Source: Methylomonas sp. LL1 | GTDB taxonomy: Bacteria > Pseudomonadota > Gammaproteobacteria > Methylococcales > Methylomonadaceae | Direction: 5' to 3' | NCBI RefSeq assembly: GCF_015711015.1 | Contig: NZ_CP064653.1 | Span: 3,348,001-3,412,000 of the forward strand | DNA: 64,000 bases | Part shown: positions 57,268-63,584 of the stretch, in pieces | Numbering within the stretch: the stretch's first letter is position 1 | How the letters are laid out: every line of letters begins with the position of its first letter | Translations under genes and position numbers: made by a program | The notes under the pieces: model-generated | What the model saw: only the letters and a program-made list of their open reading frames with translations | Told to the model about the DNA's origin: nothing | Database searches by the model: none

Positions 57268-58284
57268 ATGCAAATCCAGACCACACTGCAAAAACTGCTC
57301 GACCAGCAAAACCTTAGCGGCGATGAAATGCGCGCGGTGATGCGGGCGATGATGAACGGCGAATTGAGCGACGCTCAAATCGCCGGATTCCTGATTGCCT
57401 TGCGCTGCAAGGGCGAAACCATAGAGGAAATCGCCGCAGCGGTCGGCGTGCTGCGCGAATTGGTGCGGCACGTTCCCGTGACCGGCGAGCATGTGATCGA
57501 TACCTGCGGTACCGGAGGCGACGGCGCCAACACTTTTAACATTTCCACCACGGCGGCCTTTGTCGTGGCGGCGGCCGGCGGCAAGGTCGCCAAGCACGGT
57601 AATCGTTCGGTTTCCAGCAGTTGCGGCAGCGCGGACGTACTGGAAGCCGCCGGCATCAACCTGGATATGCCGGCCGAACAAGTCGCCGACTGTGTCAATC
57701 GAATCGGCGTCGGCTTTTTATTTGCCGCCAAACATCACAGCGCGGTGCGCCATACGGTCAATGCCCGCAAGGAAATGGGGGTCAGAACCCTGTTCAATCT
57801 GATCGGCCCGATGTCCAACCCGGCCAATGCCCCGCATCAATTGATCGGCGTATTCGACAAACAATGGCTGGTACCGGTGGCCGAAGTGCTGAAACAACTC
57901 GGCAGCCGCCATGTACTGGTTGTGCATGCCGAGGACGGCCTGGATGAGATCAGCATCGCCGCGACGACCGATGTGGCCGAATTGAAAAACGGCGAGGTGA
58001 CCAGCTACCGCGTCACGCCCGAGCAATTTGGCTTGCAACGCGCCGATCTGGCCAGTTTGGCGGTAACTGATGCGCGGTCCAGCCTGGAAATTATCCGCCA
58101 GGTGTTGAATAATCAACCTGGCCCGGCGCGAGACATCGTGGCCTTGAACGCCGGCGCGGCGATTTATGCGGCCGATTTGGCCGATTCGTTGGCGTCTGGG
58201 GTGAAACGGGCGCATGAGGTGTTGGTTGATGGGACTGCGTTAGGGAAGTTTGAGGCGTTGATAGAATATTCTCGGGCAACGTAG
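57268..58284 (+). CDS. trpD: Anthranilate phosphoribosyltransferase
   Basis: A 338-residue enzyme joining anthranilate with PRPP for tryptophan synthesis. The PRPP loop [14 protein letters not shown] (about residues 79-92), the K-H-G-N-R-S-V-S-S motif and the I-G-P-M-S-N-P segment are intact. Its normal partner trpC lies 1.2 kb downstream beyond a RAYT element, not adjacent. No trpG lies upstream. Confidence 0.96.
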
Positions 58285-58296
58285 TTTTTAGTTTTG

Positions 58297-58556
58297 TATC
58301 GCTATCGCGATAGGGTCTTTTAGAAGTCGGGTCTCGGCCCGACAGCCGAGATACTTTTCTTTGCTTGTCCAAAGAAAAGTATCCAAAAGAAAAGACACCC
58401 CAATGCCGCTTTGATCCTGCGCTCCGAAGGCTTTGAACGGGGTTTTCGGAAGGGCTATCCATAGCCCTCCGAAAACGCGATGCCTCCCTGCATCGCCCCT
58501 AAAGGGCAATTCCGCTCAAACCCTCCGGTGCTCGGCGCGGCAAAAGGGGAAAAACT
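58297..58556 (+). repeat. Left arm, long inverted repeat of the RAYT element
   Basis: Its reverse complement aligns over most of its length with 59229-59496. It contains a 14-bp hairpin, GATACTTTTCTTTG with CAAAGAAAAGTATC, plus the conserved CCGGTGCTCGGCGCGGCAA block at 58525-58543. Short open frames across it look spurious. Confidence 0.8.
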
Positions 58557-58596
58557 CGTTGGGCGAATATAAGTTGTTGGATTATTTTTTAGGACC

Positions 58597-58630
58597 GTAG
58601 GTCCGATTAGCGGAGCGTAATCGGACGCAT
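58597..58630 (+). repeat. REP palindrome beside the RAYT gene, left
   Basis: GTAG at 58597-58600 precedes GTCCGATTA-N8-TAATCGGAC, a classical REP layout with the conserved GTAG tetranucleotide recognised by RAYTs. It is inverted to the copy at 59185-59218. Confidence 0.88.
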
Positions 58631-58663
58631 GTATAAACTCATAATCCCGAAATTTTAAAATCC

Positions 58664-59173
58664 ATGCCCAATTACCGATGCGCATTTGTCCCAGGTGGAA
58701 CATGGTTTTTTACGGTGAATTTGCTGGAACGAAAAAACAACGATTTATTGCGCAAAACCGTGCGCGCGGTAAGAGAACGGTATCCGTTTAAAATCGACGC
58801 CTGGGTGGTGTTGCCGGAACACATGCCTGCGGTTTGGACATTGCCGCCGGGCGATGCGAATTTCAGCAAACGCTGGCGATTGATTAAAAGCGGGGTTTCG
58901 CGAGTGATACCGAAAACAGAGTATCGGTCGGATGTGCGTAAAGCCGCGAACGAACGTGGAATATGGCAACGGCATTTTTGGGAGCATTCGCTACGGGATG
59001 AAGCCGACTTTGAACGCCATGTGGATTATGTTCATATCAATCCGGTTAAACATGCGATTGTCAAAAGAGTCATTGATTGGCCGTATTCCAGTTTTCATCA
59101 GTATGTTGAAAAGGGAATTTATCCGGAAAATTGGGGTGATGATTTGGATTTGACGGTAGCAGGGGATGATTAA
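58664..59173 (+). CDS. REP-associated tyrosine transposase (RAYT), HUH motif altered
   Basis: A 169-residue Y1-type transposase (TnpA_REP). Its family marks are W-V-V-L-P-E-H-x-x-A-V-W-T-L-P, R-W-x-x-I-K-S, H-F-W-E-H, and Y122 in D-Y-V-H-I-N-P-V-K-H, followed by W-P-Y-S-S-F-H. The metal-binding H-U-H motif, normally HxH, reads H53-M54-P55, so the second His is lost. From His (CAT) to Pro (CCT) is one base. The catalytic tyrosine is intact. The protein is probably inactive or has changed metal use; otherwise the gene looks full length. Confidence 0.87.
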   Translation: MPNYRCAFVPGGTWFFTVNLLERKNNDLLRKTVRAVRERYPFKIDAWVVLPEHMPAVWTLPPGDANFSKRWRLIKSGVSRVIPKTEYRSDVRKAANERGIWQRHFWEHSLRDEADFERHVDYVHINPVKHAIVKRVIDWPYSSFHQYVEKGIYPENWGDDLDLTVAGDD

Positions 59174-59184
59174 CATTCGCTGAC

Positions 59185-59218
59185 ATGCGTCCGATTACGC
59201 TTCGCTAATCGGACCTAC
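59185..59218 (-). repeat. REP palindrome beside the RAYT gene, right
   Basis: On the minus strand this reads GTAG-GTCCGATTAGCG-AAG-CGTAATCGGAC, with one or two bases different from the left copy. The pair forms an inverted REP set around the transposase gene. Confidence 0.88.
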
Positions 59219-59228
59219 CGATCTGAAA

Positions 59229-59496
59229 CGGTTTTCTCCCCTGTTGCCGCGCCGAGCACCGGCGGTTTCGAACGGCATTGCCCGACAGGGGCGACGCAGG
59301 GATGCATCGCTTTTTTCGCAGGGGCAGGGATGCCCCTTCGAAAAAACCAGTTCGAAACCGTTGGAGCGCAGGAAATATGCGGCATTGGGGTGTCTTTTCT
59401 TTTGGATACTTTTCTTTGGACAAGCAAAGAAAAGTATCGCGCCTGTCGGTGCGCGAACCGACTTAAAATATAATCAGTCGCGATAGCGACACCTCA
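59229..59496 (-). repeat. Right arm, long inverted repeat of the RAYT element
   Basis: Inverted to the left arm. It includes the TTGCCGCGCCGAGCACCGG block (59244-59262) and the fully identical 60-base segment 59379-59438. Hairpins in it may also act as terminators in the trp operon. Confidence 0.8.
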
Positions 59497-59515
59497 CTAA
59501 ATCGAACATAAAAAC

Positions 59516-60313
59516 ATGACAGATACTCCCGACATCCTAAAAACCATCCTTGCCAAGAAAGCCGAAGAAGTCGCTCGCCGCAAGGCCAACACGCCGCTCT
59601 CGATGCTGCAGGAAATCGCCGGCAGCGTGCAAGGCCCGCGCGGTTTTTATCAGGCCTTGCGCGGCAAAGCCGATGCCCAAAAACCGGCCATCATCGCCGA
59701 AATCAAGAAAGCCTCGCCCAGCCAGGGCGTGATTCGGGAAGATTTCAGACCAGTCGAGATTGCGGTGGATTATGCGATGAACGGCGCCAGTTGCTTGTCG
59801 GTGTTGACCGACAAGGAATTTTTCCAGGGCTCCGAAGCCAATCTGCAAATGGTACGGGATAAATGTCCGCTTCCGGTGATTCGCAAGGACTTTATGATCG
59901 ATCCTTATCAAATTCACGAATCCCGCGCACTGGGCGCCGATTGCATCTTGCTGATCGTCGCCGCCTTGGACGATGCCCTGTTGAAGGAACTGGCCGACAC
60001 CGCCACCGGACTGGGACTGGATGTATTGGTGGAAGTACACGACGCGGCCGAACTGGAGCGGGCATTAAAGCTGAATACCAACATGATCGGCATCAACAAC
60101 CGTAATCTGCGCACTTTTGAAGTGTCGCTGCAAACCACGCTGGACTTGAAAAACACCATTCCCGCCGACAAACTGATCGTTACCGAAAGCGGCATCCACA
60201 CCCCGGCAGACGTCAAATTGATGCAGGACAACGGCATTTATAGCTTCCTGGTCGGCGAAGCCTTCATGCGCGCCGAGCGTCCGGGACTGAAAATGCGCGA
60301 ACTGTTCTTTTAA
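59516..60313 (+). CDS. trpC: Indole-3-glycerol phosphate synthase
   Basis: A 265-residue TIM-barrel enzyme that closes the indole ring in tryptophan synthesis. Family motifs: [40 protein letters not shown] and T-E-S-G-I. It follows the RAYT element; its expression may depend on read-through from trpD or on a promoter within the element. Confidence 0.97.
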
Positions 60314-62993: not shown

Positions 62994-63584
62994 GGACCCA
63001 CTGTATTAAAATCGATTATGGCTGGCTTCATCCAACCGCCACCGTCCATGGCTCTGGATGCCCGAGTCCCGCGGGCATGACGACACACTATTTTACAGAT
63101 GACATGTCACGTAACCGCTATCGCGGCAACGTAACCTACCTTACTTTATTTTTCTAGCGGGACGGGGTTAATCCCGTTTGCCGCGCCGAGCACCGAAGCT
63201 TTTGACGGGATCAGCCCGTTAGGGGCGATGCAAGGATACATCGTGGATCCGGGGTTCTGACTCGCGCCGTCCAGGCGCTCGCACGTCGTACGCCGTTGGC
63301 TTCCGCTAGGCGGGAACCGATATTAGATCAGGCCGCGATAGCGAATCATAATTTTACAGGACGACGCAGCGCGTCTAAGGCTGCATTTCCACGTAGAACG
63401 TGGGAACGATTAATAAGAGCATTTCCATCTTAAGTGTGCTACCACACAGACTCAGTATAATCAAATATTTATTATGTATAGCAAGGGACATTACTGCCTG
63501 GTTCTTCAAATTGATTTGTTGCAATTTTAAGATCTACCAAAATGGCTGAAGGAACATAGATTTTTTTTATTTGGAGAATACGAC
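62994..63584. other. 591-bp gap between mutarotase and secreted-protein genes
   Basis: No gene is supported. A degenerate copy of the RAYT-element arm fills 63178-63347. The AT-rich right end holds the promoter region and ribosome site TTGGAGA of the next gene. No convincing sigma-54 site was seen there. Confidence 0.6.
63178..63347 (-). repeat. Degenerate, transposase-free relative of the RAYT-element arm
   Basis: TTGCCGCGCCGAGCACCG at 63178-63195 matches 59244-59261 exactly. The following part keeps the GGGGCGATGCAAGGATACATCG block of the arm with a few changes, and CGCGATAGCGA at the far end. The 60-base conserved hairpin segment is missing. It has the orientation of the right arm. Confidence 0.65.

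Follow-up and report, generated by a model that had tools for sequence, protein, structure and literature searches.

Within the window, the 64,000-nucleotide stretch of the Methylomonas sp. LL1 chromosome that was analysed, trpD and trpC are separated by a gap of 1.23 kb, which contains a RAYT-like gene, inverted GTAG REPs and, outermost, a pair of inverted arms (Table 1). The original prediction described the two tryptophan genes as split by a layered, repeat-rich insert, and this description holds: every layer is present, and trpD, trpC and the RAYT are each recognised by family models. The predicted outer inverted repeats with an identical 60-base core were also found, the core being identical between the two arms of the window in the arm alignment, with arms that measure about 280–285 bp. 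Identity along the inverted repeat is 81% between 58287-58475 and 59313-59501, and 76% between 58443-58560 and 59227-59344. The inner REP pair (58587-58632 and 59183-59228) is 89% identical, and both REPs begin with GTAG, as had been anticipated. At the far side, the conserved outer end of the right arm, CGACAC, ends 23 bp 5' of trpC.

Table 1. Features of the trpD-trpC slot, in window positions
Feature	Position	Strand	Basis
trpD, upstream flank of the slot	57268..58284	+	TIGR01245, 415 bits
Left arm, structured repeat of ~285 bp, outer end toward trpD	58287..58571	+	Arm profile positions 3-285
Left GTAG REP hairpin, just inside the arm, points at the cargo	58597..58626	+	Begins GTAG
Cargo, RAYT-like Y1 transposase ORF	58664..59173	+	NCBIfam NF047646 (REP-associated tyrosine transposase), 173.5 bits, cut-off 80
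Right GTAG REP hairpin, points at the cargo	59189..59218	-	Begins GTAG
Right arm, inverted	59222..59500	-	Arm profile positions 4-279
trpC, downstream flank of the slot	59516..60313	+	NF001373, 406.8 bits; PF00218/TrpC models

Each arm carries one terminator-like hairpin with a T-rich tail, facing into the cassette (58331-58352 on the plus strand and 59456-59437 on the minus strand), and from these hairpins the arms might insulate the cargo. A consensus scan returned terminator-like hits at a level near chance (4 found, 2.2 expected), and detected no promoter inside the insert, where 1.4 would be expected. The arm was rejected as a known RNA family, the Rfam model RsmW scoring 27.3 bits against a gathering score of 52. 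A lone 71-bp piece of the arm's inner part, 82% identical, lies elsewhere in the window (63173-63243, minus strand).

Because the same arm matches 39 (left) to 42 (right) places in this genome, the repeat is not a product of chance, and the left arm is also matched in 50 of 121 sampled genomes of the family. In six complete genomes of the genus, 178 merged arm copies from among the matches listed (including 30 of the 39 matches in this genome) gave 51 neighbouring pairs less than 4 kb apart, with 43 facing inward, four direct and four outward; about 4.5 pairs of any orientation would be expected at random. A profile of 289 positions, built from 103 copies, was run over the window and 93 fetched stretches, most of which had been chosen for holding arms, and identified 64 inward pairs. 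The four pairs with fewer than 20 bp between the arms were dropped, and 60 with at least 20 bp were retained. Of 128 arms, 101 span the profile from position 7 or before to position 274 or beyond, and the outer end is sharp, with information rising from ~0.7 to 1.9 bits at GTGTCGC, while the inner end fades over ~20 bases. The outer ends of a pair read GTGTCGC...GCGACAC. The arms look like the ends of a non-autonomous element; no target-site duplication was seen by eye at the slot A and slot E junctions inspected (slot A being the trpC slot). On plasmids the arm was represented by a 55–57 bp core in two records, with none in phages.

The original prediction had treated the arms as part of a RAYT element that could move as a unit, and this part was not supported. 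A full-length RAYT ORF lies within six of the 60 arm pairs (the window, L046, L102, L116, L139 and L145), and three further pairs hold a broken copy (L165) or fragments (L110, L117), leaving 51 of 60 without any RAYT match and 54 of 60 without a full-length ORF. The possibility that arms occur unlinked to RAYT genes, raised in the original prediction as a point against it, is thus largely what was found. Conversely, of the 11 places in this genome that match the RAYT, four do so over nearly its full length, and for two of them, at 1213366 and 1217782, the 10-kb stretch fetched around the match contains no arm match. The window copy is itself probably inactive, having lost the second histidine of the HUH motif: it reads HMP, against HMH or HLH in six relatives, and the ORF is seven residues shorter than its five closest relatives. 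Movement of the whole insert by the RAYT was therefore dropped as the main account, the gene being one cargo among many.

Inverted GTAG REPs occur on both sides of the window RAYT gene, and an orientation count that took in 59 of the 60 arm pairs revealed how such REPs are placed more generally. Of 118 inner arm ends, 37 have a REP hairpin that aims at the cargo and eight have one that aims at the arm; outside the arms, 14 point to the arm and 0 of 118 point away. A GTAG REP at both ends is found in six of the 59 cassettes.

Across the genus, represented by one genome per species, trpC was found in all 37 genomes, and in 20 of these the conserved arm end lies 16–34 bp before it (17 bp in G025). 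Upstream of this arm-bounded slot, trpD is present in 14 of the 20; the contig ends before the upstream neighbour in three (G007, G011, G012), and in the other three, G005, G006 and G014 (L106, L102 and L116), genes other than trpD lie beyond the cassette. In G006 this gene is guaA, as expected if dispersed arms recombine, and the three cases together hint that the arms mediate rearrangements. Element-free trpD-trpC junctions, proposed as a check by the original prediction, do exist: in six of the 37 genomes the two genes lie 87–586 bp apart with no arm found. In the other 11, the stretch fetched around trpC contained no trpD and no arm.

What the slot contains varies widely from species to species. 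RAYT genes occupy it in this genome (G000) and in G005, G006 and G014, with RAYT fragments in G001 and G002; other cargos include DUF2971 (G022), HSDR_N (G003), GNAT (G021), a 457-aa protein (G019 and G020), an Exo_endo_phos_3 match under its cut-off (G002), and unknowns. In several genomes toxin-antitoxin-like genes also lie between trpD and the left arm. These vary too, being HigB/HigA-like by eye in L109, L110, L111, L112 and L117, and BrnT-like by eye in L103, L104, L113 and L118; when one protein of each kind was scanned, Gp49 scored just over its cut-off and BrnT below.

The same behaviour extends to other places in the chromosome. Eleven slots, drawn up by hand, hold 43 cassettes, and when cargos of at least 300 bp were compared, with sharing defined as at least 40% of the shorter cargo, only 10 of 111 pairs shared cargo. 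The outer flanks of these slots were shared in 164 of 252 comparisons. Of the 88 misses, the left flank of slot A accounts for 75, and for slots H, I and J a single flank matches. Occupancy is also variable, slot C having arms at 24 of 30 loci and slot E at 15 of 30 (loci from 30 of the 37 genomes in each case), this genome having no arm at slot E.

The 60 arm pairs enclose 74 ORFs of at least 75 aa, 12 pairs having no such ORF, and the ORFs are diverse: 20 mutual matches were found at an E-value of 1e-5, 15 of them between RAYTs. Pfam matches among the cargo include KAP_NTPase, SIR2_2, Mrr_cat, HNH, RVT_1, HSDR_N, AAA_21, DCD, PIN, T5orf172 and GNAT, while many cargo proteins have no Pfam match. 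In a scan of 68 of the 74 ORFs, the first 25 of 223 PADLOC families include models for retron-type RT and NDT, HEC-04, PDC-S20, PDC-S14, PDC-S31, PifA and QatA, hits that show only that defence genes occur among the cargo. The retron-type RT models match one cargo ORF. An RVT_1 reverse transcriptase lies within an arm pair of G014 (L149:3532-4479), alongside an IS1595-type transposase. Some cargos contain IS transposases; among the first 25 of 45 Pfam families, none of transposases is found in more than five of the 68 ORFs, Y1_Tnp matching five, with the window RAYT not among them.

Cassettes also have a preferred setting. With ORFs called mechanically, and the same slot counted once per genome, 41 of the 60 lie between co-directional ORFs (41 of the 53 resolved), with seven convergent, five divergent and seven unresolved. 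Where the flanks are co-directional, 34 of 40 cargo ORFs with 120 aa or more share their direction, including 13 of 13 at slot A.

Insight into how cargo turns over comes from one dissected case, the trpC slots of G019 and G020. The shared 457-aa cargo gene is 91–100% identical in 80-bp windows, and mostly 94–100%, whereas trpD and trpC are mostly 80–98% identical. The sequences bordering the left arm, the outer segment and the spacer on its inner side, are unrelated between the two genomes, making the locus a mosaic. The greater likeness of the cargo than of its flanks suggests that the cargo was transferred later than they were, one breakpoint lying close to the left arm's inner edge. The arms themselves are not simply static, since allelic arms are barely more alike (82%) than non-allelic arms (78%). 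In the variable middle part, the arms of one cassette agree at 0.82, compared with 0.70 for non-allelic arms, a likeness from which the arms could be supposed to travel with their cargo. A route for imported DNA is plausible, judging from the DNA-uptake protein ComEC, which scores over its cut-off in 35 of the 37 genomes.

The arms form chains of hairpins whose pairing is conserved. From 42 full arms, RNAalifold predicted 74 pairs, 30 with double changes; with loop pairing added by eye (columns 52–55 with 64–67), 97.2% of cells are paired and 32 of 78 pairs are double-changed. Double-changed cells number 309, whereas shuffles gave 100.5 (sd 8.8) and slid controls no more than 26, the latter being a flattering comparison, as the structure was derived from the same alignment, and the former one that ignores relatedness. 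Further pair types (62 against 58.5 in shuffles) are not clearly above expectation, 49 of 500 shuffles reaching 62. One-sided wobble changes are far fewer than the double changes (309 cells), a bias suggestive of a symmetry kept at the DNA level, and RNA-level selection alone was for this reason not adopted as the account of the arms, though they may also function as RNA. From the pattern of substitutions, the symmetry may reflect selection on folded DNA or hairpin-templated repair, an action at the DNA level being at least as likely as one at the RNA level. Columns 44–69 of the arm alignment (A2) also hold two overlapping hairpins that could not readily form at once, both with compensatory changes, which may reflect a pseudoknot or switching between two folds.

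Collapsed forms of the arm pair recur. At slot A of G008 and slot C of G016, what is left of the two arms is their outer 50–60 bases, joined at the second hairpin. A scar-pattern search of the 37 genomes returned mostly intact arms, which were set aside by eye, and, among the matches listed, six without the core palindrome (G004, G008, G010, G012, G014 and G031). Six short forms were inspected, comprising five of these and the G016 locus; they measure 83–97 bp by the profile and are joined at the same second hairpin. They may be deletion products or minimal elements.

Taking together the anatomy of the insert, the copy number and inward pairing of the arm, the recurring slots, the cargo turnover, the conserved structure and the recurrent short forms, we favour, with a probability of roughly 0.55, a reading in which the insert is an occupied slot of a dispersed, hairpin-bounded cassette platform that has no common transposase, and whose cargo is replaced by recombination of imported DNA. 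Our confidence is high for the anatomy and the turnover, and moderate for the recombination route. An inward-facing pair of arms, each a ~285 bp chain of hairpins, would stay put, mostly between two co-directional genes, while the DNA between them, often one accessory gene and sometimes with a GTAG REP near the inner edge, would be swapped over time. Homologous recombination of imported DNA would exchange the cargo, with the flanking genes and the arms as landing homology; the arms would on occasion collapse at their hairpins to leave short scars, and the host transcript would carry cargo expression. The current resident of the trpD-trpC slot would then be a decayed RAYT with its own REPs. Points that weigh against this reading are the small difference between allelic and non-allelic arms, the likeness of the two arms within a cassette, the slots with a single matching flank, the count of further pair types near that of shuffles, and the IS transposases in some cargos. 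A more tentative alternative, to which we give distinctly less weight, is a separate chromosomal cassette system of methanotrophs, in which the paired arms would serve as lasting docking slots. Single accessory and antiviral genes would be loaded, swapped and ejected there by an enzyme that works on the arms folded as single strands, possibly aided by RAYTs at the inner-edge GTAG REPs, and a hairpin scar of ~90 bp would be left behind.

Other accounts each explain part of these data. It is rather unlikely that the cassettes are mobile insertion cassettes, with arms and cargo moved together by an unknown transposase in trans and reinserted at preferred spots: the sharp outer ends, the dispersed copies, the 83–97 bp minimal forms, the matching of arms within a cassette and the presence of RAYT cargo in two different slots of G006 would all fit, although no target-site duplication was seen at the junctions inspected, many species use the same slots, and the Pfam families cited above include no transposase frequent enough to be common to the cargo. 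The absence of movement is the essence of another doubtful reading, that of static structural repeats, perhaps transcription insulators, with turnover due to ordinary exchange via conserved flanking genes, as in minimal mobile elements. Variation of the toxin-antitoxin-like genes outside the left arm of slot A indicates that exchange has no need of arms, and both arms have terminator-like hairpins aimed into the cassette; however, such hits are near chance, and this reading does not explain why arms are paired around cargo at dozens of places and consistently face inward.

Two further accounts assign the arms to enzymes that are present in the genus. Capture of an integron type, with IntI acting on folded arms, is very improbable: the arms look foldable as single strands and IntI is over its cut-off in 14 of the 37 genomes, this one included, but no IntI scores over the cut-off in 12 of the 20 genomes whose trpC is preceded by an arm end, and inverted pairs of ~285 bp do not resemble attC sites, which in integrons are laid out serially. 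In G036, where the arm end before trpC is present, IntI was found as split pieces below the cut-off. The integron integrase of this genome lies at G000:C2:1960215-1961168 and scores 440 bits, over the NCBIfam cut-off. It is also improbable that the insert is a TIRtron, its arms being the terminal inverted repeats of a RAYT-like transposase gene that are moved in cis and in trans. Long TIR families around RAYT-like genes have been described (PMC3733652), RAYT DNA is found in 9 of 60 arm pairs, and GTAG REPs are oriented toward the cargo at 37 of the 118 inner ends, with none outside pointing away; against this stand the 51 pairs without RAYT match, the missing HUH histidine of the window copy, and the two full-length RAYT matches of this genome without an arm match in their vicinity.

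Mobile insertion cassettes and MITEs consist of inverted repeats around passenger genes, or around nothing, and have no transposase. The arms resemble them as sharp terminal inverted repeats lacking a common transposase gene, and differ in that no target-site duplication was seen by eye at the junctions inspected and in that species share the sites while the cargo differs. The boundary sites of dif modules lie in inverse orientation. As outlined in the accessible part of one report, those of Acinetobacter plasmids are small gene modules, often toxin-antitoxin, bounded by recombination sites (PMC13141974); the bounded small gene modules are common to both systems, with short Xer sites on plasmids in the one and chromosomal arms of ~285 bp in the other. 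In Neisseria minimal mobile elements, different whole-gene cassettes lie between the same two conserved genes across genomes (PMC3898611), and conserved gene pairs here likewise hold differing whole-gene cassettes, but the slots are framed by one structured inverted repeat at dozens of places, a frame not described in the available text of that source. TIRtrons, or TIRYT genes, as presented in the accessible portions of two papers (PMC3733652; PMC6006769), share with the window and five further arm pairs a RAYT-like gene within long inverted repeats of a repeat family, whereas the repeats here mostly enclose other genes or no ORF, and the GTAG REPs lie inside the arms. REPIN/RAYT systems, so far as the accessible text covers them (PMC3116915), also combine inverted pairs of GTAG REPs with a RAYT gene, but explain only the inner layer of the insert. 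A full-text search on the core letters and related terms returned no name for the arm, and no precedent was found in the literature searched for exchangeable slots that a single structured repeat family frames dozens of times over, few subscription papers being covered in either case.

The insert is therefore ordinary as a RAYT insertion and unusual as a member of a cassette-slot family. If the favoured reading of a recombination-driven cassette platform is true, it would show in what way accessory genes of the chromosome, candidate defence genes among them, stay exchangeable without an adjacent integrase, and how they come to sit in host operons able to express them. The short forms and the compensatory changes make the action of the arm as folded DNA testable. 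In addition, the arms provide a searchable signature, in the form of the 289-position profile and the core palindrome, which also occurs as inverted pairs in Paraburkholderia records, and with this signature unknown cargo genes could be catalogued in methanotrophs and their relatives.

Among 369 genomes sampled from the class, 16 contain the core palindrome, this genome included, and the records listed include Methylomonas, Paraburkholderia, Burkholderia, Xanthomonas, Stenotrophomonas and others. Some of those listed are Bacteroidales or Selenomonadaceae, which may be unrelated occurrences. An inverted partner of at least 60 bp was found within 5 kb for 58 of the 129 palindromes in the loci examined, many of the others being near an end; none of the Xanthomonas and Stenotrophomonas loci examined had an inverted partner. 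The centres of the Paraburkholderia pairs are mostly short. In one allelic Paraburkholderia pair, L216 and L264, the flanks are 81–84% identical and the outer arm 90%, with little likeness inside. The inner arms of L216 and L264 differ between the two inserts, yet are symmetric within each.
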